Shown one piece after another: positions 1 to 60,280 of a stretch of DNA of 64,000 nucleotides. The translations under genes and the position numbers were made by a program. The stretch's first letter is position 1. Each line of letters opens with the position of its first letter. The notes under the pieces are model-generated. The model was given only the letters and a program-made list of their open reading frames with translations. It did not search any database and was not told the DNA's origin. This DNA comes from Tubulanus polymorphus (Eukaryota; Nemertea; Palaeonemertea; Tubulaniformes; Tubulanidae), in the NCBI RefSeq assembly GCF_964204645.1, contig NC_134025.1:5833001-5897000 (forward strand), in the 5' to 3' direction.

Positions 1-3000
1 AGAGGTATGGAGGAAGCTGTAGAAATTATGGCACTGAAAATCAATGTTCTGATATACAAAGTATATGTACCCGCTCTGCATGGTCCTGTTGGTAAAGCTA
101 AACCAGGTGTTTCACAGTATTCGCCTGCAGCACAAGGCAAACAGTCACTAAGTTGTGCGCGATGCGATATGTTATTGTATGTTCCAGGAGGGCACGGGAA
201 TTCTGTTGAATATTTCGTACTCTCCGGACAATAAAATCCTGTCAGAAAAAAATTGTAGAAAATATTTGAAGAAACAATGACATCTGAACAGAATCAAACA
301 AAACGAATCAATTCCAACGATTTTTAAAATCACCAACCTTCAGGGCACGCTGTGTTGTTATATAGCACAACAGGATCCATAGTATTGTCGCAGTAATATC
401 CCAGAGGACAGTTCTTACACGATGCTTGTCCTACTTCATCTTGATATGATCCAGATAAACAACGCAATGGTTGTGAACTTCCAGCCGGACAATAATGACC
501 TGAATGTGTTTCATTGCAAATTAAGTTAATTGGGCCCAAAAGAAGGAAGGGTGCTAAACATGGCAATTGAATCCGTTACCGATATTGATATTAATCATAC
601 CTAATGAACAGTTGTATTCTGAAGGATTTGGACTAGCTTGCCCACCGGGGCAATAATAACCAGCACTACAGAGACCAGTTGGTACACCATTTAGAGATCC
701 TGCACAGTAAGAGCCTGGCAAACACGGCTCACAATCCAGTAGTCCTTTATTACCGGTTGAGTTTACAAAGGTTCCAGGTCCACATGGCCGAGCTGATGCG
801 CTGGCTAGCGGGCAGAATGTTCCAACCGGACAGATATCACCTGAAATTCATGTATTGATTTGTAGTTAACTCAATGTAAAGATACCGGTATCTACATTCA
901 AATAATGTCATTTTTAATGCTTCTATACAACTTACCTGTAATATTTCCATCACGAGGATTGGGAATTTTAGCTCCAGACCTACAATAATATCCGCTATCA
1001 CACACTCCAGAAACCTTAGATAGGTAATCACTTGCACAATACAAGCCCGGTGTACATGGAGTTGGATGAGAAGAGCCGACAGGACAGAACGTTCCCGCCA
1101 AACAATAGCTTCCCCACGTTTTGTTAACTGGATTGCTCGATGTTGCTCCGGTCGTACAGTAATATCCCCCATCACACGGGCCAGTTGGTGCATCTAATGC
1201 TGCCCTATCACAATAATAACCCCCTGAAAATAATAACAGCAGAAAGGATTTTGATTTTGACCATTTTGAGAAATTCCCAATGTCAAATGATCACTTAAAG
1301 AGATTCCTTACTAATCAGCTATTGAATACAACTAGTACAAACCTGGACAATCGAGACAATCATGAGGAGCAGTACGCATAGTGAGATTGTTGTACGTTCC
1401 AGCAGGGCATGGATTTTGATTGATCGATTTTGTGTTCAAGGGACAGTAGTATCCAGGAGGACATTCATAAGGAGTATAGCTACTGCTTCCTGATGGGCAA
1501 TAATAACCTATACAATGAAAATAGAGCGATTACCACAGATCATTAAATCATAGCTAACATTCAATTCAATTTTGGATTTTTAACTAATATACTTTACCTG
1601 CAGGGCAATCTTTGCAAGCAGCTAAACCCTGTACATCGGCATAGGAACCATTTTCGCATGGTATGGGATTGGTGCTTGCCAAACCACCGGGACAATAATG
1701 CCCGATTGGGCAAATTCCACCATAGCCACGTTGGTTATAATTATAACATGTGCTATTATAGGGCAGAGATGTATCATTCCCTGGTGGATAATTGCGATCG
1801 ACACCATATGCACACCAGTGACCAGGGGCACAGTCTCCTGAGAACAGAATGAAAACAGTGCAAGGAAAAGTGTCATCTGTGATTGCATAAGTGAATTATT
1901 CATTTCATTCTAATATTGGATATCTTGGATTTGTAGCTATAAAGAATACCTGCAGGATTTGCAAGATGTTCGGAGTCACAGTATTTTCCAGCGGGGCATG
2001 GTTTACACTGACTAACATCAGATAATTCAAGCTGGTCGCTGTAAGTACCACGTGGGCAGGATTTCCAGTCTTTTCCAGTACCGCTAGGACAATAATACCC
2101 GGCCGGACAACTAACAGATTGACCTTGATATATACAATAGAATCCAGCTGGACAATCGTAGCACATAGGGGCATGAGTATGATTCACCTAGAAAAATATG
2201 TCAAAATATTAATAATATTAGAAAATATGAAAGGTACTTTAGCAGGTCTCATCTCCGGAAAAAAATTACTCACATGACTGTTATTTCTACAAGGTATAGG
2301 CTGAGCAGTGCCTCCTGGGCAGAAGAAACCGATAGGGCAGTATGTTGAGGGTGGATCCTTTCGAGCAGACCCTTCAGGGCAGTAATATCCTGGATCACAA
2401 AATCCAGTAGGTTGCGTCAAGCCTGGCGTAGCACAATAACTTCCACCCGGACATAGAAGACAGTCAGTTACATTTTTCAATCCTGTTTCATTCGACCAAC
2501 GTCCTGTAAATATTAAGAAGAAAATTTAAAAAGCGTATGTAATAACAAAATCAACAAATCAACAAAATATTCTTTCAGGTATACCTTCAGGACAAGGAGT
2601 AGGCAAAAAAGTGCCCTCCTTACAGTATGATCCTTCAGGACAGATGATAAAATCTGGCTTAGTGGCTTGTATGGGACAGTAATAACCTTCCAAGCATAAT
2701 CCACTGGGTGCTGTCAGATTCATTTCTCCACAATAATAACCTGAGAAGAGAATGAAAACGAATTATCAAATAGCAATATACGCATGATCTTGAAAACACT
2801 GGATAAAAGAATTTTGACTGACCTTGTGTACAATTCAAACATTGATCAACACTCGTTAATCGAACATTACTAGAAAACGTTCCTATTGGGCATTTCTGAG
2901 GTTCACTAGACATTTCTGGACAGTAAAATCCGGCTGGACATTCATTAGCATCAGCACCTTGTGTTGGGGTGCCACTCTGTGCACCGCCTCGACAGTAAAA

Positions 3001-6000
3001 CCTGAAGATTGAAAAGCACAGTATAAGTTCATGTCAAATAACTGACAAATTTTCAGTTGTTTTATCTTACCCAGCATTGCATAATTTCCAGTAGGTAGTT
3101 TGAGCTACCTGATCACAGAAAAATCCTCCTGGACATTGAAGACAATCAGTGACAGCATGAAGACCTGTATAGTTACTGTATGTACCAGCCGGGCATCCAT
3201 ATTCAGTAGCAAACTTTGTACCATTCGGACAATAATGACCTTAAAAGCAGGAAAAATCTTAATGCTGTGCAATGGAGGGTTGATAGAAGCAGCAAAATGA
3301 AGTAGGAGTCTCAATCTTACCCTCCGGGCAAATGGTATCATTGTAAAGAACAACAGGATTCATTGTATTGTCACAATAGTATCCTGATGGGCATAATTTA
3401 CATGTGCTTTTTGCTGTTTCATCTTGATAATACCCAGACGAACAACGGATTGCTTCATAACTACCAACTGCACAGTAGTGACCTATAAGAATGTGGGGTA
3501 CCATGCATAAGGTGAACCATGTAATGTGTAATGTGTAAAACACTGGTTTCTTACCAAATCAAGTGATATACATGCGTGACTATAAAATTACTGACACAAA
3601 CATACATTTCTTGCGCAGTGCTGACAAAAATGTGACTTGAATTGAGTCTAAAAGGTTTCTAAAATTTTACGTAATTACCTTGAGGGCATGGATGATCATT
3701 TGGACTGGACACATTCATTCCGGGTGGACAGAAATATCCAGCATCGCAAGGTCCAGTGGGATTGATATTTCCAAAGCCGGAACAGTAATTTCCCTGCGTA
3801 CATTCTAAACAGTCGGACTCATTTCTGCCACCAGTCACATTCAAGAATGTTCCGGGCGGACATAAAGTTCCACTGGCGCTTCCTTCAGGGCAGTATCTAC
3901 CCTTCGGACAAAGATTTCCTTAAAGATTCAAATAAATCTCAATAACACCTGAACGCAGAGTCAAAATTAGAATGAAGATTAGACCAGACTAGCTAATTTT
4001 ATTTTTACATATATGTAACCAATTGAAACTGGTCATAGAGTTGGTCACTTTCTAGGCTTAACTAGAAACAGGATAAAACCATGGATTTGACATAAATCCC
4101 ATTTATTGATACTATATGAAACATGCGATAGTAAATTAAGATTACCTTGTACATTGTCAGTAGGTGTTGCGGTAAGTGACCCGAGGTTACAATAATATCC
4201 AGCATTACAGTAACCAGATGTAGAATACAACTGTGATCGGGAGCAATAATGTCCAGGTGTACATTTGATTTGATCTGAACTCCCTTCTGGGCAGAAATAA
4301 CCAGGCTGGCATTCACTGCCTTGACTGACTACACTCGGCTGTGAGACAACAGCTCCACCTATGCAGTAATACCCAGCGGAACAAGGACCAGATGGACTAG
4401 TTAAGCCTGGCATTTCACAATACGACCTTCAAAGAGATAGACAAATAGATCTTACTACTTTACCTAAATACACAACAATCACTAAATGTTAAACTAAATA
4501 AACATCTGCAATGCAAAACTTACCCCGGCGAGCAATCTTTACAGAAAGTATCGTCTAATGCACCAGTGATATTGTTAAATTTTCCAGCTGGGCAAGGATG
4601 CTGATCAGCTCTTTCCGTTCGTTCTAAACAGAAATGACCTCCTGGGCATGGAAATGGCTCAGCGGTACCCAGGGGACAATATGCACCTGGAGGACAGTAC
4701 TGACATTCCTTTTGACCAGTTCTATTCTGATAAAAGCCCATGGCGCATGCTAAGGGTACTGCCGTTTGTGGTGGGCAATAAAAACCTGAAAAGTTTTCAT
4801 AGTATTTCATGATTAATTATAGACATTTAAATCAATCCCTTATGAATGTTACAATAAATACCAATTTAATACCTTTTGGACAGATATCTCCATATGATTT
4901 GTTCAAAGGTGTAGCTTCAATTGAGCCACCGCTGCAGAAATATCCTTCACTACAATCAAATGAAGTGACAACACCATCCTTTTTAACATCACTGGTATCA
5001 GTCATATTCGTGTAAGGACAATATTTTCCACCAGGGCAATCAGTGCAGTTATTGATGTCCCCATATCCCCGTGAAAATCTGAAATAATTATTGTAATTTT
5101 TTAATATTCTACTTAAACATGTCTGTATTGGATCTAAAGATTATACTAAATATTGTCAAACTCACCCGAATGTGCCCATTGGACAAGGTATTGGAGCCAC
5201 ACTGCTTAAAGGACAGTAATAACCACGAGGACAGATGCCATAATTATCGTTATCCGTATTAGGAGGCATTGGGCTAACAGCTAATGTTTTGGCCCAATAT
5301 CCAGGAGAAATAGGACCAGTCACATTCCCCTGCCCTAGAAATATAACAAAAGAGAATCATAGGTAAGTAGGCGAATAAATGAAAATCTTTTTGTCCCTTC
5401 AAAGTAATGATGACTTTTGCCTAATAAACATACCAGTCGTTGAACAATAATATCCACCATCACAATCAGAACAATCTGAAATTATCACTAATCCAGAACG
5501 TGGACCGTACGTTCCGATAGGACACGCTTTAGGGAACTTAAGTGGAATCAGATCGGTACTAGCTGGACAATAATAGCCTGAAAGATAAACACATGTAAAA
5601 GTGGAATAATCTAAGATCAATGTTTGAAATTATGAAATGTAAAAGATGTTTTTAATTACCTTGTGGACATAACAAAGGTTCTTGTCCAACATAGCAGACA
5701 TAACCTCCGGGACATAGTTCACATTTAACCATTCCAGTGGAGTTAGCGTGGTATCCAGCTAGGCAGTCCCTCGGCTGATTACCAGCCTCGCAGTATTTGA
5801 AACGAGGACAAATATCGCCAGTTGAATTCAATGGATTAGGAACGACGGATCCTTCTGTACAGTAGTATCCAGGATCACATATACCTATTATTTGATATAA
5901 CATGGAAAATTAGTGAAAACATTTATTTTTTCACTCAGTGCTGCTGCATGTCTATTTCATTCAGGAATGACCACTCTGTATTTTCAGTTCGTAAGACATA

Positions 6001-9000
6001 GTTATACCTGTTGGGGAAACAAGTCCAGTGGTGTTACAATAATGTCCGGATAAACATGGCTGACACGCCGAGCTTTCAGATACTCCTCGGTAGTTAGGGT
6101 TGAATGTACCACGAGGGCAAGGAACCATAGACGTTGTTCCTGAAGGGCAGTAGTAACCAGGCTGACACTGATCACCCCAAAGTATGATAATTTTGTCGCC
6201 TGTAGTATCATTGTTATAGATTGGATCATCATGAAGAGCGCTTCCATAACAAATATGACCAGCTTTACAATCTCCAGTAGGTTGCGTAGCACCTTTACTC
6301 TGACAATACATTCCTGGTGGACAAGGGGCACAAGAATCATTTGACTTAGCGTGTGTTCTGAAATAAAGACAACAAATTATGTGAATTTCATAAAAATCTG
6401 TTTCTTTCATCTTCATGTAATGAATAAAATTAACTCACTCATTCGAGAATGTTCCTTCAGGACAATCCAGCGGAACATAGCTACCATTGACACAGAATTT
6501 TCCAGCTGGGCAGGCAACACGGTCCGTCATATTTTTTTCTGGACAATAGAATCCAGGGTCACAGACGAGACACTCTGATGCACGATCATAAGGCATATAC
6601 GTAGCAATTGAACATTCAGTTGGAGATATAGATCCATTTCCAGAAAATGAACCTGAATCAAAAATCATTTTTTCGAAAATTCAAGATTTAAAACAATGAG
6701 AAAGTTAAATGTGAATGAATGCAGTAGCACATCAGCATACCTGGTGGTGTGACATGTTGTCTTGGTGTTTTGGCTCCACCAGTGCAGTAATATCCACCCC
6801 AACAAAGGCCAGTAGGTTCCCCTCCAGCAACAGCTGAACAATAATAACCTGCATCACATTCAAAACAATCGTAGTGGTTCACTGCTCCAGATACATTACT
6901 ATAGGTACCAGGTGGACATGGCTTAGCTTCATAAGATCCTGTAAATTTCAATCAAATTCATGTTAATTATTTATCAATAAACAAGATATTCAATACATTT
7001 TTCTTGATAAAGAAAACCTGGTAATAACTTACCAAGAGTACAGTAACCACCAGCAGGACAAACAGCTCCGGTGACACCATCTGTGGGACCAGATGTCATC
7101 GCTCCAAGGACGCAAATAAATCCTGGATCACATGGAGCTCGGGGGGTCAGCAAACCAGGAGTATCACAGTACCATCCTGGGGTACATAGTGGGCATTCTT
7201 CAAGTTTTTCTAATCCTGTTCAAAAATGCACAATACGTCATATCTGCCCATTTGGAAATCATTAAAACATAAGATAGGCTTTTAGATATAAATGTATGTT
7301 GAATGATGGCTCTACTCACTTGACACATTTCCATAACGACCCATCGGGCAAGGAGTGGGTTGTGATGCACCGGTAGGACAGTAAGATCCTCGGGGGCAAT
7401 CTATAGGTTGATTGGTACCTTGTGGACAATACGAACGACTGGGACAAGTTTCACAATCAGATACTGCCTGTGTTCCAGTCACATTTGTATATGTTCCATC
7501 AGGACAAGCGACCTTAAAAAAAATACATTCAGTTAGATAGCTACATGCATAGTCTATAAAAGAACGAATAAATATGATAAATACCATCAAAGGTTTGATT
7601 GTACAATGTACGTACCTGGCGTGGACCATAGGAACCAATTTGTGGAGGAGAGCTTCCATAGACATTTGAAAACGGACTTGGACAGTAGAAACCTTGATCG
7701 CATGGCCCGGATACGACAAACACACCTTCAACACAGTATGATCCAGCAGGACACGGGAGACAGTCAGTTACTGCTGATTTTCCTACTAATTCATTAATCG
7801 TACCAACAGGACAGTTCAATTCCGCAACAGTGGCTACAATTAGAAATGAGAATCATAAAAATGTGCCAGGGGTGTGGATATAAAAACATGACTGTCCTCC
7901 ATTAACAACATTGAAAAAGTTTTAGATCTTTTATACCTTCAGGACAGTATTTCCCTTTTGAACAATCCGTAGCTTGAGAAAGAGCTGATAACCTTCCAGC
8001 ACAGTATTTTCCAGGTGGACATCTTTTTGTAGATTTCATCGCAGTTTCTCCAGTTGCATCATCATCGCAGTAATATCCCGGTGGGCAATCCAAGCACTCA
8101 TATTGACCTAGCTTTGAATATTTTCCTTTCCCGCATGCTGATGGATATACTGTTCCCTTCGTGCAGAAATATCCTTCTGTGCATGGCAAACACTCAAACT
8201 GTCTTTTCGCTGGATCTCCGGGACCGATCAGCGAACCATTCGTTGCAACACCATATGGCATATACGTTCCCGCAGCGCATTCTACAGGACTTGGCACTGC
8301 GTATTCACAATAATTTCCTACAAAAAACAATTGTTAGAACAATAAGGAACAACGTTAACGCCAGTTTATAGAATTAAAACTCAAAAAAATAATTGATCAA
8401 TATACCCTTTTACTAACCTTGAGTACACTGTTTACATTGATCTTGACGCTGAATACCGAGTACATCATTATATGTGCCATTCTGGCAGCCGAATTGAGTG
8501 GGAAATTTTGTACTTTGGGGGCAATAGTGACCACGGGGACACAGTCCACTTTCAGCAGGCTGGCCACCTAAATGAACCATATATGTATGAAGTTAATTGA
8601 ACAATACACTTTATTCATTAGGTTTACTATTGACACGAGTATCTTGATAATTTACCTAAACAGTAATAGTTCGCAGTACACGGTGTACATTCAGATGCAT
8701 CAGTTAGGCTAGACGAAGGTGTGAATGATCCAGCTGGACAAGGATAACGATCTGGAGCTGGAGTCTGTAAAGGACAATAATGACCAGGGGCACATGGCTG
8801 TGGTGTCGGCGGAACTGTTACACCTAGAAATAAATTTTCACAAAGTTACAAGATACCGAAGAAATAGGAAAATTGACGAGATATGAAATGAAGGTACCGG
8901 TAAATAGCTAACCTGTTCCCCAGCTACAATATTTCCCCTTTGGACAAGGGTCACACTCATCAGCTGATGTCAAATTCGTGTTGCCAGTTAATGTGCCTGG

Positions 9001-12000
9001 TAAACACGGCTTCTCATCCGGTGTTATTGTTCCTTTCGGACAGTAATGACCTTCATTGCAAGGTGTCGTCACTTCCCACTGTCCCGCTACAGGACACGCA
9101 AATCCAGCATCACACGATCGACAGTTCAATTCATGTCCAGACTTTGTATCCGGATTGTACGTTCCTGGTGGACACGGTATAGGTGAAACTGATGGCTTAG
9201 ACTTGGTGCCCGCCGGGCAATAATGACCTCGCGTACAATCCAAACAGTCAGATGACTCTGTTCAGGATAAACATAAGAATATTACATAGATACACAATAC
9301 AGAATATTCCATGTAATCCACAAAAGTTTAGACAATACAACTTACTAGTGATTCCTTGGGTACTGCTGTACGTTCCAATAGGGCATGCATTTATTGTTCC
9401 TGAACCTTGATTTTGTCCACACCAGAATCCAGCTGGACAGTCATTATTTGTACCAGATGAACCACTTGGACAGAATTTGCCTTCTGGACATGATAAACAG
9501 TCACCTTCAACAGTTGCCATTTCGTTTGGATTGTAAGATCCAGCTGGACACGGAAAGGCTGTTCCCGATGGTGTTCCCGCTAAACAAAAGTATCCTTTTG
9601 GACACTTATTAGGCAAATATTCATATGATGCAGGACCAGGACAGAAGTAACCTATGTTTTGATAAATGAAAATGGAAAATATCAATTGTTAAAAGACCAT
9701 TTCTTTGAAGAATATGGTATAAAATCCTATCTTCAAAAATATCAGTTAAACATAAAAACAAAATCTTATTTGTATACAAAGACTATTGGTATCAATTTTT
9801 CAATTACCTGCGGGACAAGTAGTACATGAAGAACCACTGGTTGAGCCATTTCTTGGATTATATGTTCCAGCAGGGCATGCGTGGAAATCTTTACCATCAC
9901 ACCAACCGCCCTTATCACATATAAAGGCTGCAGGGGTGCTGGTCGTCGAAGCTGATGGACAACGATAACCTTTTTCACATGGTGCGCAAGCCTGCGCTCG
10001 TCCCGTGGAAAATGTTCCAGGTAAACATTCAGCCTTCCTTGAAGCTAGAAAATATTAGGAAAGATCTTTTTATTATTTTCGATTCCGATGGAGTTTAATT
10101 TTGTCTCTCCTCAGAAATATTACCTTCAGCGGAAGGACAGTACCATCCAGGCTCACATGCTGTGCAATTCGTCATCTTTGCTTCACTGTATGTGCCTGGT
10201 GCACAACGGTAAGGACCAGATCTAGCTGATGGGCATTCAAAACCTTCGGAACATGCTGTACATATATCTTGACTACCATATGAATAGTAACCAGCTTGAC
10301 AAGCGACCCTATAAAGAAATATTTACGATGATGATAATTTGGCTTGTATTGTTGATCTTATTGTTATGGTGAGCCAATGAACCATTACCTGCTATCAGTA
10401 TCAACAGCAGCACATTCAAAACCAGGAGGACATGGTGTACAACTTGTTTGGTTACCAACTGAGAATGTTCCCTTTGTACAAGGAACTAACGTTTCAGAAT
10501 TTGTTAGTGGACAGGCCACCCCAGCAGGACAGTAAGTACATGCCGATTGGCCCTCAGATGCATACGTTCCAGGTTTACATTCAATCATATCAGCTCCTGA
10601 TGAAGTTGGACATGCATAACCAGCAGGACATGTAATACATGATGTAGATCCTAAAATGATTCATGATTCATGATTAAGTGTCTGGACAGTATGCAAAGCA
10701 AATCGAACATATCAATGAATTCTTTACCAGTAAGTGTATATTGTCCCAAAGAGCATTGTTTAATTCCTGATCCATCTTTACTGGGACACACTGATCCAGC
10801 AGCACAGGGAGTGCAAGAAACAGCATTACCAGTAGAATATGTACCATCAGGACAAGTGAGGACTAGCGCTTGGCTGCAAACAACAAATTAATGATGAATG
10901 GATGAGTGGTGTAGAGCAAATCATAAATCTTTTGCGAATGACACAAAGTTTCTGTAAAAGTTTTTTTTCATGCTTACTCAATTTCGGGGCAATATTTTCC
11001 AGCTGGACATGGGGTACACGTAGTTTGACCATCAATTGAATATGTTCCGGGCGAGCAAGGTGTATTGGTACTGATTTTGTCAACCGATGGACAAGCTTTT
11101 CCAGCTGGACAAATCGAACATGCAGTTTGTCCACTCAAACTCTGATAGCCTAAAGAATATGCAAGGATAATGAAAATGAATCCTTACAGGCATCACATTA
11201 AATAAATGCTTGGCAGTAAGACAGCTTTGAATTCATTTAGAATTTTCATATTACCTGTGGGACATGGTACAGCAGCTTGACCTTTATCAGGACATTTGCT
11301 TCCAGCCGGGCATGTTACACAGCTAGTAGCTGTACGGTCAATATTGTATGTTCCACTTGCACATGGAATTGGTTCCGACCCAATATTTTGACAAGTTGAC
11401 CCTAGGTAGTTAATAAACTTATCCATAAGTTATCTCCTCATAACAAATGTAAAGAGTAAAATATCTCCAATGTAATTTGGTCATTCAGCAGTCCTTATCT
11501 CTTATTTTATAAACTTACCCAGAGGACATGGATCGCATACTGAGCTATTTCCGAGAGAATATGTTCCTGGAGCACAGGTTAGTACATTGATAGTATCTGG
11601 GCAGTATTTTCCAGGCGGACAGGGTATACAGCTAGATGCCCGAGTGCCTGAAGTTGAACCAGTTGGACACTGGATTTCTGCGGCTGCACCCTCAGGACAA
11701 TAATTACTGGCAGTACAACTCGTACAACTTGTCGCTGAAAAGCATAAAAATAGTTGGTACAGATGAATCGCAAAATGTAACTTCCATCATTCAAGTCTAA
11801 TCCTGAAACTTACATCCAGCAGCACTGTATTCTCCAGGGGAACATTTAACAGGCACAGCCGATGTACTGGCACATTTATAACCAGCAGGGCATAGTTGGC
11901 ATTGTGTCCATCCAGGTTTAGAGTAGTAATCTGTAAACATTGAAAAATTCATTTGCAACTACTATAGAACAACATTGATAAATTCATTTGTAACTACTAT

Positions 12001-15000
12001 AGAACAATGTGACTGATGTGAAATCTAATGCACATAAAATCTACTTACTAGCAGAACAGGCCTGCTTTGCCAACAATGTAGGGCAGGAATATCCTGCAGG
12101 ACATGTTGTACACACAGCATCTCCTTCCAAGGCATATGTCCCAGGCAAACAACTTGTAGGATCAGTTCTTCGAAGTGAAAATAAATACAGCTTGATTATT
12201 CATAATTTATTAAATGGAAGTTATTTTTTCTAATGAACAATGAAACACTTACGTCGGATCAGTACATTTAACCCCAGCCGGACATGGATAACATGAGTCC
12301 TGAATTCCTTTAGTAATTTCATCTGAAAATACAATCATTGTTAAGAACCAATCTAATATCCCCTTTCGATTTTAATTACATACGTGTAATGAAATTTCAA
12401 AAACTTACTGTTTGGACATTTTGTGCAGAGTATGGCTCTTCTTTTCGAAAAATAACCTCTTGCACAAGGCACAGGGTCTATAGCCTTATTTTTACACTGA
12501 CTACCAGCTGGACATTGATGACACTCAGTAGATTCTAAAAATTATTGATACGTACATTATATCCGAATGTTTGACGAAACACTTCTTTAATATACGTAAA
12601 TATGTACCGGGTATGTGGATTAGTAACGATCATTTTTATAGGTAGGACCATTTTTATAGGTATGTTATAAGTCATATTAGTCATGGTTGATTAATTAAAA
12701 CAGCATTTACACAATGTGAAAAGTGATATAATGACATACGTTCTTTACTGTAGTCACCAGATGCACATGGGGTACAGGTGGATACCCCAGCAGCACTGGC
12801 AGTACCAGCTGGACATGGTGTAGAACTGTTTCTATTTGGACAACCAAATCCTGCCGGGCACTGCGAACATTCAGTCTGACCTTGAAAAATAAATTTAGCA
12901 TCACACCTTCATTGAGCAGTTTAGAACCACAACTTCCCAGTCTAATCTGTTTAGTTATATTATGTGTTACATAAAAACACAATTAACCCATGTCATTAGA
13001 AACAAAATCTGAGATTTAGAAATCAAGAAATGCATCTAATACCAATCTTTTCACATTCATATTAATTAGTTGAAGGATGCATTTGATAGTTGGCTTTGAA
13101 ATTGAATACAATTCTGGATCTAAATCTTAAATTTTAGAACTTTTTTCATTTAGTTACATGTTCAAACATGTGCATTTAACTTTCACAATACCCACACAGC
13201 ACATAAAATTCAAAAAGGTGTATGATGTATTACAGGGCTTTCTAATGAAATGCAGATTCTATGTTCAATGATGAATTGAAGTCATTTGAGATTAAAAAAA
13301 TCAAATTGTTGTTTATGAGCCTCTTAGACAGCCCTGTAAACACACGGACATTGATGTGCTCAAAACAGTATCTGATGAAAACTCACTTGGATTCGCAGTA
13401 TAATATCCATCAGGACACAAAATAGGATCTGCAGCACCCTTACTAGGACATTTATAACCAGGCGGGCATGATGTACACTCTGAACTTCCTTCAGCTGCAT
13501 AGGTTCCTTTTCCACATTTAAGTGGAGTAGTTGTTCCACTCAAGGCACAAGATTTACCAGGTGGACAAGGCAAACAGCTTTCCGCACCGGATACACTGTA
13601 TGTACCAGGATTACATTTCTGTAATAAAGATTTTGAAGGTGGGAGACCTATGATAAAACCGGCAACTCAGTTACTGATCTTCTATCTCAACGAAACAGCT
13701 ACCTAGAATTACTTACCAAACACGCTTGTGAACTGGTACTTCTTAATTGCGAATTGTAACGACCATTAGCACATTTCGTTTTGGGATTTGAGAAACCAAG
13801 ACAGCTAGAATGATAAGACAAGATTGATATGGAATTCTTATTCAGATTTCTGTTTGAAGGCAATTTATCGCTGAAAATTGATTACCAAGTCGTTTGAAAA
13901 TTAATAAACGATGTATCTCTGCACGTATAATGAGATAAGGATTTAAAACAAAATACATGTATGCAATCACCCAAGAATCGGAACCACATCATTTTGTTTT
14001 AGAAACTCCAGAATCAGGCCCATACATCTTATCTGCTAACAAGAAACACGCACTAGACTATAAAAACATACAAAACTATATCATACAGAATTCATAAGTT
14101 TGTCAACAGAATTTGCAGGGGAATTTAATCTTTAGTGGGATATCGACCACTTGTTTATCAAACCCGCCAGGGAAATAAATACTGGTATATCAATGTGTGC
14201 AGACCTGATTGTGACCACAAAATGGTGAAACCACAGATTAGCATATCAAGGAACTCAAAAAACCGAAATCTATAAATTTCATTTCTTTTCTGAAGGCTGT
14301 TTTATTACAGGATACACTGATAACTTCATATTTAAAGACAACCACACTACATATACAAGGCGTATACACTCTCATGTCATACAGCTATCAAATCCTATGT
14401 CCACAATACTAAATTCTTAAATTATTAATGTTAATATCACACAATCGTTGAGTCAGACCTGAAGGTCTAATTAACTAATGCCAACATTCAGAAGAGGACT
14501 GGCAACATGAAGATTAAATTTTAAAACCTAACAGCGCTGATTGGCATAGCTAGGCCTATAATAGTCAACATTTGCTGAAAGAATGTTTACACAGTTTGAG
14601 TACTGCCTTAAGTCTTAAAGATAATGTAAAGATAAAGATATTAAACTAAAAGAAAATGTACTTTGCCTTAACAAATGCATGGGCGCGATTATATATGAAA
14701 TACTGAATGGCCCTGAACAATAAAACCAAGCTTATAATTTCTTTAAATTGTGCAAAGGTGTTTTTGCAGATTATGCAATCATAAATGAACAACATTGGTT
14801 GATAAAATAAGGTATAACCAACTTAGCTCCATGTATCATATCACTGTCATATTTCAGTATCCAAGCATCTGGAAAACTTTAATCAATCATTTGACTAATG
14901 AACATTATAAATCACGTATGCAGCAATGCCCCATGTATTTTTCAAAATGTGAATGTTTCCATCTGGATTAATCTGCTGTCGATGTTTTGGTTGTTTATTT

Positions 15001-16686
15001 TGCCATATGATATTGATTAATTAAGTACATTTATAAACTAATTTGGTAACAACTAAATCGTTTTCACAGCAGCAACTTTCCAATATGGATGTTTTCATGT
15101 CACCATGAATGAATTAAATTGTTTTTCCACTTAAGAATCTAAGAAAATATATAATTCAATCCATATTCCGCCGTAAAATTCAATGAATCATTGAAGCCGA
15201 AGCAGACCATGGATTATAAAATGTTTAATATCAAAATGAATTCTCAAAGGAAAACCTGCTTTCCCTAATCCCATATCTAGAGACACAATAGAACATTGTG
15301 GGAATAAAAGAGTTCCTAATATTACAAACCGGATGAAAAGACCATTTAAAATACGGAAAAAACTGCAATTCAGATTATACTATCTTTCAATAGACTGTAA
15401 TTAGATACTTTGAGCTTGTTAAAGGTGTTTTGAATTGTAATAGATAACATAAAAAAGGATCTATAGACTGTCTTTTTGCCATAATTGCATGAAACGGGGA
15501 ATAGAATAGAACAGAACAAAACCGGTACAGATTGAGAGGAGGTTTAGGAATTAATTCTCTAAAAGAACCATAACACAAAATAACATGGGCTATTAGTCTA
15601 TGGATACCCCATTCAATGGAGATAATGGAAGATTTTCTGGGAGAGGCTTCCAAAATATATCCTAGATCTGCTCTAGATGGAATTAGAATTGTAAAACCAT
15701 TTTTCATACAACTTGACAGGATTGTGGTGCACAAAATCATAAGCCTATAAGATTTTCCTTAGAATTGGCTGAGGACTTGAAATAAGATCTACTTAAGAAA
15801 TTAAACAAATAGTATTTCTGTTCATTGACAGTTCACTGATTTACTTACTAATGTCCGTTCGGACAATCCATACATTTTCCGCTATCGAAGTACTGACCAG
15901 CAGGACAACCACTTACACAATCTACACTACAATCACATACACCACCTACAAAATCATCATTAATCCTAATCAATTTTCAAGGATTCAAGAAGGTTTTGTG
16001 TTCTACTGTCTGAATTACAGAAAATAAGAACCATAAAAGAACATTTCACATGTAATTGATCTGTTTAAACAAAATTTTTACTAGACGCAATTTGGCCTTA
16101 TTGCTTTTAGTGATAGGCGGTCAAAAATTTCACTTAAGGTCTTGTTTAAAATTTTATCAAGATCTGATACCATTTGAGTATCAGTAATTATTTTGACTAT
16201 AGGATGCCTGATGTCAATAACTGTGGCAATTTATTGACTATTTTCATACCATATACATAAAGTACTGTAGCGTCCTTTCAACCTATGGAGTTATTATTGA
16301 CCATTCTTTAGTTAGAGATTGTGTAAGCATGAAGAATTTATAGCTGTAGTACTGCTTATACTCTGAACAACAAAACTTGGTTTCTATATAAATAAATCAT
16401 CGCGCAGTTACAAAATCAACATCAAACAACAAGATTCAACTTACCAACAGGTTTTATAAACTGCGACCCGCACAGATATAAGATGAACACAATCACAAAA
16501 TTAATAAATCATCGCGCAGTTACAAAATCAACATCAAACAACAAGATTCAACTTACCAACAGGTTTTATAAACTGCGACCCGCACAGATATAAGATGAAC
16601 ACAATCACAAAATTAATTTTCCTTAAGGCAGAAACATCCCACAGCAGACTCCTAAAATATCTCGTTCCAAATTGAGCCATCCTCAT
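1..16686 (-). CDS. Giant secreted cysteine-rich repeat protein (GCC2/GCC3, ephrin-receptor-like modules), 5' 46 exons, partial at 3' end
   Basis: Forty-six exons join without a break into about 3,036 codons; the frame leaves at the left edge. Exons 1-46: 16557-16686, 15849-15945, 13717-13804, 13387-13618, 12740-12880, 12409-12534, 12253-12322, 12049-12167, 11814-11930, 11519-11734, 11255-11401, 10978-11149, 10728-10873, 10389-10650, 10124-10308, 9808-10044, 9346-9651, 8913-9257, 8656-8823, 8418-8567, 7937-8317, 7616-7833, 7320-7512, 7033-7215, 6741-6938, 6439-6652, 6008-6357, 5660-5884, 5434-5577, 5166-5334, 4873-5078, 4524-4785, 4146-4426, 3679-3918, 3321-3482, 3071-3239, 2823-3001, 2585-2740, 2274-2503, 1950-2187, 1598-1837, 1343-1507, 936-1223, 601-840, 338-499, about 71-238. 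After a signal peptide the whole product is repeats of the type CPxGxYCP-x(n)-C-x-x-GTY, as in Pfam GCC2_GCC3 (ephrin-receptor-like) proteins. I see no other domain and no membrane helix. An extracellular structural or adhesive role is inferred. The end of exon 46 is uncertain. Confidence 0.88.
71..1223 (-). repeat. Paralogous exon block B (exons 43-46) of the giant gene
   Basis: This is the partner of the block at 3071-4426; exons 936-1223, 601-840, 338-499 and about 71-238 follow the same order. The lengths are nearly the same and the cysteine pattern is kept. Divergence at the protein level shows that the duplication is old. If the ten-exon period goes on, exons like numbers 37-42 should follow beyond the left edge. 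Confidence 0.75.
3071..4426 (-). repeat. Paralogous exon block A (exons 33-36) of the giant gene
   Basis: Exons 33-36 are 281, 240, 162 and 169 nt long and match exons 43-46 (71-1223; 288, 240, 162 and about 168 nt) in order, length and sequence. The clearest pair is exon 35 and exon 45: about 36 of 54 residues are identical, and both hold YYCDNTM and PVVLYN. The copies are ten exons apart, so the unit duplicated within the gene was probably a multi-exon block. Confidence 0.8.
11937..12006. repeat. Short tandem repeat, two 35-bp units, in an intron of the giant gene
   Basis: Units 11937-11971 and 11972-12006 share the sequence acattga/taaattcatttg and the stretch after it, with only a couple of differences. 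They lie between exons 8 and 9. Confidence 0.8.
13805..15848. other. Intron 2 of the giant cysteine-rich gene (2.0 kb), no gene seen
   Basis: This is by far the longest intron of the gene; most of the others are 100-300 bp. It is AT-rich. The one longer open frame, at 15387-15740 on the minus strand, has no recognisable family motif and no splice or start context that I trust, so I leave it out. Confidence 0.6.
16391..16614. repeat. Perfect 112-bp direct tandem duplication over the signal-peptide exon
   Basis: Bases 16391-16502 and 16503-16614 read the same by eye. The right copy holds the working hydrophobic core and 5' splice site of exon 1 of the giant gene. The left copy lies in intron 1 and carries a second, apparently unused, copy of the same coding piece and of the GTAAGT donor (16439-16444). 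Reading past the first donor meets an in-frame TGA within seven codons, so the left copy cannot simply extend the exon. Confidence 0.9.
16557..16686 (-). CDS. Exon 1 of the giant cysteine-rich gene: start codon and signal peptide
   Basis: ATG at 16686-16684 is followed two codons later by a second in-frame ATG (16680-16678); a TAA lies just upstream of the first. The exon encodes a short basic segment and then a hydrophobic core (INFVIVFILYLCGS), a typical signal peptide, and ends in phase 1 at a consensus GTAAGT donor (16551-16556). It joins exon 2 (15849-15945), whose first residues are Cys-rich (GGVCDCSVDC). Which of the two ATGs is used is open. Confidence 0.8.
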
Positions 16687-48043: not shown

Positions 48044-52047
<4,004 letters not shown>

Positions 52048-54997: not shown

Positions 54998-57900
54998 TTA
55001 ACTGAGCGATGTACGCGACGGCAAAGGTGGCGGTGGAATGGGTTTATAGGCTAGATAATCGGGTAGCGGGGTATATTCCACATCCTTATATCCAAAAGCC
55101 TGCGGCCCGACAACTTTCAATGCTAACTCAGAACGCATTGCCGGCGCAGATGGCATTGCTATGACGACAACGCGTAGACCATAACGGGTTTCTTCTGTAA
55201 TGACTGGCTCTCCTGTATCGGCATCTAATAAGCTAATGAGGTCGGGGGTCGTCGCGACGACATCGCCGCTTAGTTTACTGCCGGCTATGCGCTTCCTCGC
55301 GACCAAATTTTCATTCTGAAAATCGACTAGTAGCTCACTGCCTTGGAAACGACCGAAACCTTCGACGATCAACTTACCAAATGTAAACCCATTTTCAGTT
55401 TTTCGGGTTACGTCTATAATCTGAAAACATAATAACACGCTCTCTTGAAGAAATTAGGCAATACCACAACATGAATCTGTTGAAATAAGCTAGAATGGAT
55501 TTGAATCCCGACTGAGCAAACTCAACTGGCTTAAATAGTTCTATACTCTCTAATAGAGACTAATTCCTGTCTTGATGAAGGTCAATACATACAATATCAA
55601 TTTAAACAACTGTTTTCGTTGTTTTTTGAAAAAGCAATAACAATTGTTTAAATTGATATTGTATGTATTCACCTTGGCTTCTCTAGAAAAGATTTATTTA
55701 CCTTTCCATGTATTAACCTTCGGCCACTACAGCTTTTTATTACCACAGACGCGGGTGATACTTTCAATTCACGAGCACGTAAAATAGCATCGCCGACCCT
55801 CCATGATCTGCTTACACTATACAGAATGGTGTTCTCTTTCACTTCTTTAGCTTTGAAACAAGACAGCGTAACACCAGCCGCACACCTGCAATTATGAATC
55901 ATTTTCTTCAATAATGACGATATTTGAAGAATTCAAATTTTATGCATCAAACTTAAAGGCTGCACTTACCCGCACTTCACCACACATTCTCTGAAGAAAT
56001 CTTCCAAACCTTTTGGCGTTAGCTTTCCATCAATTACAGCAAATCGCCTACCCTGTACAAATGTTTTTATCATTTCACTAAGTACGCAGTTCAATGAAAT
56101 CATAAGCCGATACTTTATCGATATACATACCTTATCATCAGCCATCGCGCCTGGGAATGGATTCAAGCCCTTTATGAATGGCAGTACCATCTGTAGTTCA
56201 GGGAAAGCCCGGCCCATACCATCGCAATCAACAACTGGTAAATTCATATCAGCAGCAAATGCCAATGGTTCGAGGGCATTTAAACCCCCAATCTCACCAC
56301 TCATCAAAGCTACCATTTTTACCGCTTTCACTTTCTTCAATTTGCTTATATCCTCTTCAGTCCGAAGAACCTAATTACAGGTGTTATAATTATAATAACA
56401 TTTATAATAAGTTTTTTTCCAAATATAACGTGCTAACGATATGATTTTGCGATCTATCAAACTCACCCTATTACCATCTTCATCTTTCATGATTTTATCG
56501 CAGTTTGATTGCATAATTTCTTGAACTAAATGCACAGAATCACATATCTCATTGCCAGCAATCAGTTTCTCCAATGCGATCAAAGGGGCTCCCATAAAAC
56601 CAACCATACTAACATAACCATCATAATCCGGGGATACCGACAATCTAACATACAAAAACAAAACATTGATTTCATTTCTAAAGGAGAAGAACTGTTTAAC
56701 AAGGATAACAAAGCTTAAAATTAAATTTGAAATCAATTTCAAGATAGATAAAAATTGTTACATAACAAGTCTTATATAATGCATAAGTATGCTGCCTGTT
56801 GTATTATACCTGCTTGGGTGAATAACTCGTATTCGTTTACCATCTTTCAGCGCTTTAAGTGCATGTAATCTCGCCAGATACGGGCTACCTCCACCTCCAC
56901 AACCCAATATACCAGCACCGATAGCGATACACTCAATGTCACGTTTATTCAGGAGCCATTCTCCAGTAGCGTAATCAATATCGTGTTCATGGTATTCAAT
57001 CTCTGGACTTTCAAGTCGCCCTAAAAATTCAAATATTCCTTGCGTAAATGATAGCAAATGAGATGACATTTCCACAATCGCGTGCTCAGATTTAGCTTCA
57101 CAGTTAAAATCAATTCATTTTCATATGTACCGGTACTCAATCAACAAACTTCGCCCTGGGTCCAGATTATTAATCCTGCTACCTCCAATCGATTGAAAAA
57201 TAATTCAGGTCAGAACAGAAATTTGAAGTTCCTCCCGCTTCATAGCTAGCGCAATTAGTAGAAAACGTTTGTTATCCTACCTGCATTAAAACTTTGCATT
57301 AATGAGTCCGGTATTTCATCTTCTTCTTCATTTTCCTCATTGTTAACATCGCTCTGAACACCATCAACAGCATCAGCTGTAACTATTAAGAGAAGTCACA
57401 ATATATCAAAAAAATATCATTCGTGGGAATTAGTGGTTAAAATGAAAAGTAGGTTTAAATTGTCATAATACCTTCATCAGATATTGAAGATTTAATCGGT
57501 AGAAGATCGCCCACTGCTTTTACTTGTAGCCTAACAGCATCTCCAGGTACATATGCTACTGGTGTTTCAGTGACCTCAACGACCTCTACTGTGTCTGGAT
57601 GAGCCCCTCCCTGGAGGACTAACATTTCAGCTTTCTTCTTAGTTGACTCAACAGCTTCATCGCGAGGTACCTTTGCCATGCACACAATATGATCGACACT
57701 GCCTCCTATTTTACTCAATGCTGCTCCAACAGCATTAGCAACCTTAATAATAAAACCATATTGATAGTAAATATTAGAATGCAGTTGATACACCGGTAAC
57801 CAGAAAAGTGAATGAACCTCAAATTATTTTCTACAATGGTACAACATGTACAATATTGCCCAATCGAATTCAAACTTACAGCAAAATGAGATGGTTTAAT

Positions 57901-59832
57901 AACTTTGGAGGAGCCTTTCAGTTTACGCTTGCTGTCTATTAGAATACTTCCACCACCCACTAAAACAACAGGTTCATCGCAAGCACTAATCTGAAGATAG
58001 ACAAAATATTTAAAACATAAGGTGACAATTTTCAATTTCTCATTGCAGTTTATCATGTATGAGTACATTAAAAAATATACCTTCACTTGATCCAAGACAC
58101 CTTCGATCATTTCACGGATTTCCCTGATTGCACATTCTACAGTATCGTCTGGTATATGCTGCGTACGTTCTATATCACCGAGTTGAACGAGGCCTGCTCG
58201 CACAGCAATATCAGTCGCGGTTAACATTGATCCTCCAAAAGCTATCGAGTCTTGAGTTAATTTATATCCTACAGACTGTGGTCCGACTTTTATTGGAGTC
58301 TGTGGAAATTTGATCAAGTTCAAAATTGTCATAGTTAGTATAATTGATCAAACCGAATAGAATTCATAATCCCCTGACATTGGTTCTAATTGAGATGGTC
58401 TTTCTATTAACTTACTGTTAAGAACATACTATCACGAGTTTTAGGAGATGTCAATTCTCGAACTAGTGATCCACCACCAAGTCCAATACTTAGAACATCT
58501 GGCATACGAAAATTTGTATTCACTCCACCAACCTTTAATGAGAACCATCACTGATAATCTTACAAGGAGCCACTCATTCATTGAAGGTGCATTTGTATGT
58601 GGTTATGGGCTTGAAAAATTGACACAAAGACTACCACGTGAACACAATGTTACAATGAACAAATTGACATATATACAAGTAATTGAAACTTACAGCAACT
58701 TTTGAGGAAGCCTCCCTCGGAAAACCTTTGCGTAATACTCCAACATCAGTCGTAGTTCCACCTATATCAATAACTATGCAGTTCTTAATACCTGCCAAAA
58801 ACGCAGCTCCACGCATACTATTAGTTGGACCAGATGCAAATGTCCGAACTGGAAATTCGAGAGTATCAGCAGCACTGCAATAAATGATGAGAAAATAAAG
58901 ACTGTTACTACATACAGAAATATCACCAGTAACTGGAAGTAATTAATGATGTTATTTAGTTTGAAAGATAGGGCCAATAGATGCCTACCATACCTGATGA
59001 GTGTTCCGTCATTTTGAGTCAGGAAAAATGGACAATCTAGTTTAAGATTATCTAATGCATTTCGGAAACCATCAATTGTCTGCTGACTTAATGGTTTGAG
59101 ACATTCGTTTAAAATCGCCGCGCTTTCACGCTCCAAGAGACCAATTTGCCCGATAGAATGAGACAGTGTGATACTGACTGATGGGAAATGTCGATGAATT
59201 ATTTCAGCCACTTTCTGTTCTTGACATGGATTTATTGGAGAAAAAACCCCTGTAAAAGAACTTTTTGGGATAGACAAAGAACTTTTTGGGATAATTCAGA
59301 GATATGGGTAAAAATTCAAACACAAACAATCCATATTCGACTGCCTACCTGATATCACAACATTTTTGACGCCCGATTTTATAATTTGACTAGAAACACT
59401 TTCAATTTCGTCATGATCCAGATCTGTGATACACTGTCCATCGAACTGGAAACCGCCATCAACCAAATAAACGCCTCCATCTACCATTAATACCAAATCA
59501 TCGGGAATATTAACGAACGGAGGCAATGCACGCGATGATGGCCCACATAATCGTATCACAGCAACTCTCACCAAATTTTTCCGCTGAATAACTGCGTTTA
59601 CAAAATGCGTCGTTCCAATATTAACAGAGAAGATTTTCTTATTCTTGTAGACCGCATCGAGCGATTCGAGAGATAATTCAACAGCTTTAGCCACGCCTTC
59701 AGTTACATCTTCGGTGGTGTTTATTTTCGCCGAACTGACGAGACGATTACCGCACAGCACGGCAGCGTCTGTGTTCGTACCGCCCACATCGACACCGACT
59801 CTAAGAATGTCTTCTATATTGAACGATGTCAT
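54998..59832 (-). CDS. Hydantoinase/oxoprolinase subunit A fused to a DUF917 domain
   Basis: Fourteen exons join in phase into 1,019 residues: 59349-59832, 58994-59249, 58694-58874, 58416-58532, 58081-58299, 57880-57990, 57472-57742, 57281-57382, 56810-57020, 56467-56644, 56131-56370, 55970-56052, 55702-55885, 54998-55420. Residues up to about 550 are HyuA-like with an actin-type ATPase fold: phosphate loops VGVDVGGTNTD and VIDIGGTTTDVG and the later SIGLGGGSLV. An acidic linker follows (NNEENEEEDEI). The C-terminal part is DUF917 (IGAGILGCGGGGSPYLARL, then VDCDGMGRAFPELQM). HyuA proteins open cyclic amides such as hydantoins or 5-oxoproline with ATP, usually together with a HyuB subunit; no HyuB part is present here. 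The substrate is unknown. The fusion resembles proteins known mainly from bacteria and fungi, but it carries ordinary animal-type introns. Confidence 0.88.
55584..55669. repeat. Perfect 26-bp inverted repeat (hairpin) in the last intron of the hydantoinase gene
   Basis: The 26 bases 55584-55609 (beginning aatacatacaatatcaa) are the exact reverse complement of 55644-55669, with a 34-nt spacer. Transcribed on either strand, this would fold into a long perfect hairpin. It lies inside the intron 55421-55701. Confidence 0.9.
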
Positions 59833-60280
59833 GATCTTCGAAGAATTGTCAATCGTCGACGAATTGCTACCTCAGGTCTGAAATCGATTTACCCAAGTGA
59901 ATTTCATGCATTCGTCTACTTAATTTTTGAAATCGATTCAGCTAATCAATGCATTGATTACTAAAATCGATAAATCAAGCAAATCGCTCGTGCGGTGTCA
60001 CTCACTCAGATTTACATAAGTGAATTATTGTTGGTTGGTGCAAAAACGATATCCCAAATCTGTTGATTCGGTGAATCGAATATACAACATTATATTAATT
60101 GACACTGGATTAACAGATTATCGTTTTTACACTACCTACCTGCTACAACTCCGATACGACGACCCTGTATTTTTATTCAGTTACCAATCATCTACAACAA
60201 ATTCCCTAAACTTGCTCCGGATTATTTCTGTCCATGTCAATAAAGGGTAGCTCCGTGAATATCCACATCAGGGTGTGTAG

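Follow-up and report, generated by a model that had tools for sequence, protein, structure and literature searches.

A putative giant single-pass membrane protein of Tubulanus polymorphus with an eightfold cysteine super-repeat and possibly late introns

The window analysed here is a 64,000-nucleotide stretch of contig C1 of the nemertean Tubulanus polymorphus (C1:5833001-5897000, from a 268-Mb genome in which 12 contigs are of chromosome size), at one end of which, between positions 71 and 16686 of the minus strand, lies a long series of exons encoding cysteine modules. A gene model covering the window and a further 30 kb leftward suggests that these exons are probably the 5' third of a single gene, and that its product would be a type I single-pass membrane protein of ~9,900 residues. 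In addition, comparison of its repeat units with those of a paralogue on contig C8 indicates that intron positions are shared at chance level, and that the excess of phase-1 introns follows the distribution of empty AG|G sites.

Gene model and protein architecture

The gene finder, a splice-aware dynamic programme using codon log-odds and splice-site matrices trained on the locus, was run with the ATG at 16686 fixed as start and with a lower limit on exon length; after inspection, a bonus was given to the edges of two exons near the 5' end and of two that encode the transmembrane part. This independent splice model returned the same figures as a preliminary description of the stretch, namely 46 consecutive exons running from 16686 to 71 in a single frame, with 34 of the 45 introns in phase 1, and a product of 3,022 residues that includes 324 cysteines. 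The preliminary description had also placed the 3' end outside the window, perhaps with a membrane or G-protein-coupled receptor part. Its first expectation was borne out by the leftward sequence, where 87 more in-frame exons extend over 28.9 kb to window coordinate -28884 (C1:5804116), so that the full model comprises 133 predicted exons in one frame and a product of 9,887 residues, 803 of them cysteines. The receptor part had to be dropped, as the sole strong hydrophobic segment after the signal-like N-terminus, at residues 7587-7612 (WEMIAVLLMAFVLVIILIIIILVLFRRYGW), is one transmembrane helix and not seven.

Exon 1 (16557..16686) begins with the start ATG and an N-terminus (MRMAQFGTRYFRSLLWDVSALRKINFVIVFILYLCGSQFIKPVG) whose hydrophobic peak spans residues 14-40 and which is signal-peptide-like by hydrophobicity. 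The cysteine-module array occupies residues ~45-7290, starting with the first module in exon 2 (15849..15945, GGVCDCSVDCVSGCPAGQYFDSGKCMDCPNGH), and its cysteine density stays even (24-32 per 250 residues) as far as about residue 7250, beyond which cysteines are nearly absent. The claim that the modules have no partner domain stands within the window only, since units A2-A7 of the array, a juxtamembrane domain, the transmembrane helix and a tail follow, in that order, to the left of it. The juxtamembrane region, of ~300 residues, carries a conserved RRRLL motif, which is present in both paralogues just outside the membrane (residue 7445, C1:5814078, in the present gene and near C8:10999500 in the other) and could be a candidate dibasic processing site.

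The tail behind the membrane span comprises 2,275 residues, is charged and prone to form helices, and includes two stretches, of 425 and 195 residues, that lack proline. It contains DPxTGxxxPI repeats at ~7990-8280 (C1:5811771 and leftward), which matched no family and were not seen in the paralogue tail, and a conserved C-terminal domain at ~9530-9690 that is common to the paralogue. Among the tail pieces compared with Pfam, all of them outside residues 8580-8960, none rose above its cut-off (HAUS1 reached 29.3 bits against 40), and searches of the tail and its C-terminal domain against PDB and NCBIfam gave no credible match. Relatives were likewise sought in viral contigs, and none were found there.

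Super-repeat, module family and paralogue

The preliminary description had counted more than 3,000 residues of a single module type, and some 3,000 residues of cysteine modules are indeed present in the window, but they are not monotonous. From residue 1573 on, the array consists of eight in-register copies of a super-repeat of ~684 residues, units A0-A7, which were cut at the marker motif GYYCDN (residues 2260, 2949, 3637, 4311, 4990, 5683, 6363 and 7047, with spacings of 689, 688, 674, 679, 693, 680 and 684). Identity among A1-A6 is 44-48%, with A0 and A7 lower, and the in-register segment match beats the best out-of-register match in 99% of 90 comparisons. When the eight A units were aligned with eight units of the paralogue, 68 cysteine columns were kept in at least 14 of the 16. 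The ectodomain is also rich in N-glycosylation sequons, with 148 against 46 +/- 6 in shuffled sequence (136 against 42 +/- 6 in the paralogue), several of which sit at constant columns of the unit.

The modules resemble PF07699, TNFR_c6 and NCD3G. A hidden Markov model search supported their earlier assignment to the GCC2/GCC3 type for residues 1-300, where PF07699 (Ephrin_rec_like, formerly GCC2_GCC3) scored 40.6 bits against a gathering cut-off of 23.1 and matched in three stretches. The assignment did not extend further at this threshold, for the 684-residue units remained below it (A2 reached 19.7 bits, and the best E among the three units searched was 1.5e-4), as did the individual exons tested (16-22 bits). 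The protein resembles PF07699 in its short cysteine modules with a CxxC...CPxGxY pattern, whereas the later units fall under the family cut-off and the modules here are set in a 684-residue super-repeat. Animal proteins bearing this module type include ELAPOR1/2, SVEP1, SCUBE and the Eph receptors, which combine a few modules with other domains, in contrast to the long array described here; to our knowledge, none of them has an array of this length.

A genome search with one unit, whose candidates were scored in part, found only the C1 locus and a paralogue on the minus strand of C8 at ~10.98-11.08 Mb. Although the paralogue model is rougher, with some exons and a transposable-element insert omitted, it has a cysteine array with eight units of ~700 residues (the B units), a hydrophobic helix (IAFFATCALLLVVAVIVW) and tail segments, in the same domain order as the C1 gene. 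The two proteins share 38% identity both in the juxtamembrane domain (E 3e-14) and in the C-terminal domain (E 6e-23), and the genome held no further copy of the latter. A tree of all 16 units groups A7 with B7 (support 100), A1-A6 with one another (98) and likewise B3-B6 (89), which indicates that the array predates the gene duplication and that its middle was later amplified or homogenised within each gene. Long overlapping retroelement open reading frames, perhaps of the tyrosine-recombinase type, were observed within a paralogue intron (C8:11013300-11018200; L040, L041).

Intron positions and phase

Symmetric phase-1 exons in repeat proteins are usually read as a mark of exon shuffling, and the preliminary description had seen in them a substrate for exon duplication and shuffling. 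Homologous units would then be expected to share intron positions. We aligned the 16 units, which contain 134 introns, and compared sharing with a null in which introns are placed at random at each unit's own AG|G sites. Sharing was at chance level among the A units (15 positions against 15.3 +/- 4.1 expected), among the B units (7 against 5.6 +/- 2.3) and between A and B units (18 against 18.8 +/- 4.4), so that the duplication reading fails; even the sister units A7 and B7 have zero intron positions in common. When introns are placed uniformly, which is a less strict null, sharing among A units exceeds expectation (17 against 5.6), as would be the case if insertion prefers glycine codons; placement at random in such codons yields 12.2 +/- 3.5.

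Phase 1 accounts for 76 of the 101 ectodomain introns (75%) and for 76% of the empty AG|G sites there, while in the tail phases 0, 1 and 2 make up 57, 33 and 10% of introns and 57, 34 and 10% of empty AG|G sites. As intron phase tracks the empty sites in both regions, the predominance of phase 1 appears to reflect glycine codons. An intron in AG/G at phase 1 necessarily splits a GGN codon (PMC8001218), and 66 of the 76 phase-1 introns do split a glycine codon; the intronless aligned counterparts of intron positions are glycine in 75% of cases, against a background of 13%. No intron-intron similarity past two 19-bp matches was seen, and mobile introner copies were rejected as the nature of these introns.

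That the array was built by duplication or shuffling of symmetric phase-1 exons is, in our view, extremely improbable. The phase-1 counts given above accord with it, and 55 ectodomain exons are literally 1-1 symmetric, as had been claimed, but intron sharing does not exceed chance, phase follows AG|G sites in the tail as well as in the ectodomain, and the symmetric exons are not bounded by modules. Exon borders coincide with neither modules nor super-repeats; the agreement of exon and domain borders that is diagnostic of exon shuffling (PMC8001218) is absent. Exon duplication does occur in this protein family, but at phase 0 and elsewhere, namely at the 5' end of the paralogue only, where 13 intact 150-nt phase-0 exons encode one 50-residue module apiece and lie inside recent segmental duplications of up to 6.2 kb with 96.6% identity (C8:11053000-11073200). 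This provides a built-in contrast within the same family.

We conclude from the aligned units that the present introns seem either to have come in after the units multiplied or to have wholly turned over since. We give about even credence to a more specific history, in which the 16 blocks were amplified at an intron-poor or intronless stage of the locus, and independent intron insertions at AG|G sites, mostly in glycine codons and many of them within CxxGxYC, followed later. Coinciding positions would then be due to random AG|G insertion, and the dominance of phase 1 would arise from glycine codons alone. A horizontally acquired alpha-amylase gene of Basidiomycetes similarly gained many introns independently after its origin (PMC3584928); that comparison was made across species, whereas ours is among repeat copies within one genome and relates phase to AG|G sites.

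Possible function and alternative explanations

Our best guess is that the protein is a long glycosylated cell-surface rod with the tail as internal anchor. In this view, disulphides would make the array a stiff, elongated rod that bears a coat of N-glycans and is fixed to the cell surface. The helical tail may link this rod to the cytoskeleton, and the protein might work as a spacer, a tether or a filament of a surface coat.

The protein could instead be an ordinary receptor for signalling or adhesion, with an array that binds ligands as happens in the TNF-receptor and Eph families. Such a role would suit the module similarities described above and a weak match to TNFRSF9 (E 0.015); however, the array is much bigger than in those families and the tail pieces scanned contain no kinase, death or other signalling domain, and we hold such a receptor to be unlikely. 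Less probable still, we believe, is an animal counterpart of the mastigoneme, in which the ectodomain would polymerise into a hair-like ciliary filament. The ectodomain is very long, periodic and sequon-rich, and Chlamydomonas Mst1, which likewise has extracellular cysteine-rich modules, was the only protein of solved structure that the super-repeat profile hit at E <= 0.001 (E 1.2e-8). This match is at module level only: it spans cysteine modules of a general kind, with a strongly biased composition. Mst1 has 1,987 residues, with Ig (immunoglobulin)-like domains and a polyproline helix, and it polymerises around MST3, tied to PKD2, and is anchored via MST3, PKD2 and SIP (PMC11015965). The present protein is about five times longer, neither an Ig-like nor a polyproline part was noticed in it, and its own membrane span and 2,275-residue tail differ from anchorage of the Mst1 type. 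Since the mastigoneme is held by other proteins, the Mst1 match is, at the level of sequence, a lead and not membership. A third alternative is that two or more adjoining genes were joined in our model, such as one for a secreted cysteine protein and another for a helical protein, as the abrupt composition shift at the juxtamembrane region and the predicted status of the joins might suggest. The introns from exon 4 on are all 69-506 bp long (the median for the whole gene is 89 bp), which leaves scarce space for a second promoter and 3' end; moreover, the frame is unbroken, and the domains and their order recur in the C8 paralogue. Thus, we consider adjoining genes very improbable.

Several points weigh against the single anchored rod with late introns that we favour. 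Every splice join is predicted, and exons 1-3 and 107-108, the merged exon 129 and the last exon were placed by inspection. In the ectodomain the minor phases deviate from the AG|G expectation, with phase 2 up and phase 0 down (p = 0.0008 over three classes), so proto-splice targeting is not the entire story. In addition, ancient introns that had been fully replaced over time would mimic an intron-poor ancestor. Outside ~9247-9268 and 9793-9842 the tail gives a weak heptad signal, so that a coiled coil is at most tentative, and an AlphaFold model of exon 43 and three other window exons had a pLDDT (predicted local distance difference test) of 41 and was discarded; the rod shape is thus conjectural.

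If our reading is correct, the two genes make up a family of two, whose products are giant surface proteins anchored in the membrane and built on a regular eightfold super-repeat. Such a cell-surface architecture, in which the scanned tail pieces match no Pfam family, would be undescribed in spiralian animals within the searches made. A literature search, with most subscription journals outside its reach, found no account of such a protein. The 16 units would act as internal replicates in which the share of phase 1 is predictable from proto-splice sites without exon duplication, and the two giant sister genes would represent a replicated natural experiment in intron gain.

Exon coordinates and neighbouring genes

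All exons of the gene lie on the minus strand of the window. A 112-bp tandem duplication (16388..16611, 99-100% identical) extends from the 3' half of exon 1 through the donor site into the beginning of intron 1. It creates a second identical donor for exon 1, whose use would lengthen the exon by 112 nt and cause a frameshift. Exons 3-25 (6741..13804) encode N-terminal cysteine modules outside the 684-residue register, including the stretch that passes PF07699. The splice model places exon 3 at 13717-13804, 4 at 13387-13618, 5 at 12740-12880, 6 at 12457-12534, 7 at 12253-12322, 8 at 12049-12167, 9 at 11814-11930, 10 at 11519-11734, 11 at 11255-11401, 12 at 10978-11149, 13 at 10728-10873, 14 at 10389-10650, 15 at 10124-10308, 16 at 9808-10044, 17 at 9346-9651, 18 at 8913-9257, 19 at 8656-8823, 20 at 8418-8567, 21 at 7937-8317, 22 at 7616-7833, 23 at 7320-7512, 24 at 7033-7215 and 25 at 6741-6938. 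Unit A0 (residues 1573-2256, 3385..6515) starts within exon 26 at 6515 and runs to exon 35, the model placing exon 26 at 6439-6652, 27 at 6008-6357, 28 at 5660-5884, 29 at 5434-5577, 30 at 5166-5334, 31 at 4873-5078, 32 at 4524-4785, 33 at 4146-4426, 34 at 3679-3918 and 35 at 3321-3482. Unit A1 (residues 2257-2945, 402..3384) takes in exons 35-45, with exon 36 at 3071-3239, 37 at 2823-3001, 38 at 2585-2740, 39 at 2274-2503, 40 at 1950-2187, 41 at 1598-1837, 42 at 1343-1507, 43 at 936-1223, 44 at 601-840 and 45 at 338-499. The beginning of unit A2 (71..401) falls in exons 45 and 46, the latter at 71-238, and the gene runs on to the left of the window.

Other, ordinary genes named by Pfam lie within positions 17669-53000 of the window, namely an Ig-domain receptor (19128), a WD40 gene (25119), a gene with a MoCF_biosynth domain (34230), a nucleotide pyrophosphatase gene (44244) and a lipid desaturase gene (46916). 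C2H2 zinc fingers at 51354-51770 on the plus strand have a YY1-like look and are, by eye, presumably nearly identical to vertebrate YY1. At 55001-59871 on the minus strand lies a gene of the hydantoinase/oxoprolinase type (PF05378, E 5e-26) that appears to contain introns. In the genome at large, neither a COX1 search for a mitochondrial contig nor an 18S primer pattern yielded a match. A Hox cluster at C6:5.318-5.635 Mb, whose signature motifs point to a spiralian animal, includes one gene with KLNGP after the homeodomain (Lox5-like) and two with IKELN (Lox4/Lox2-like).

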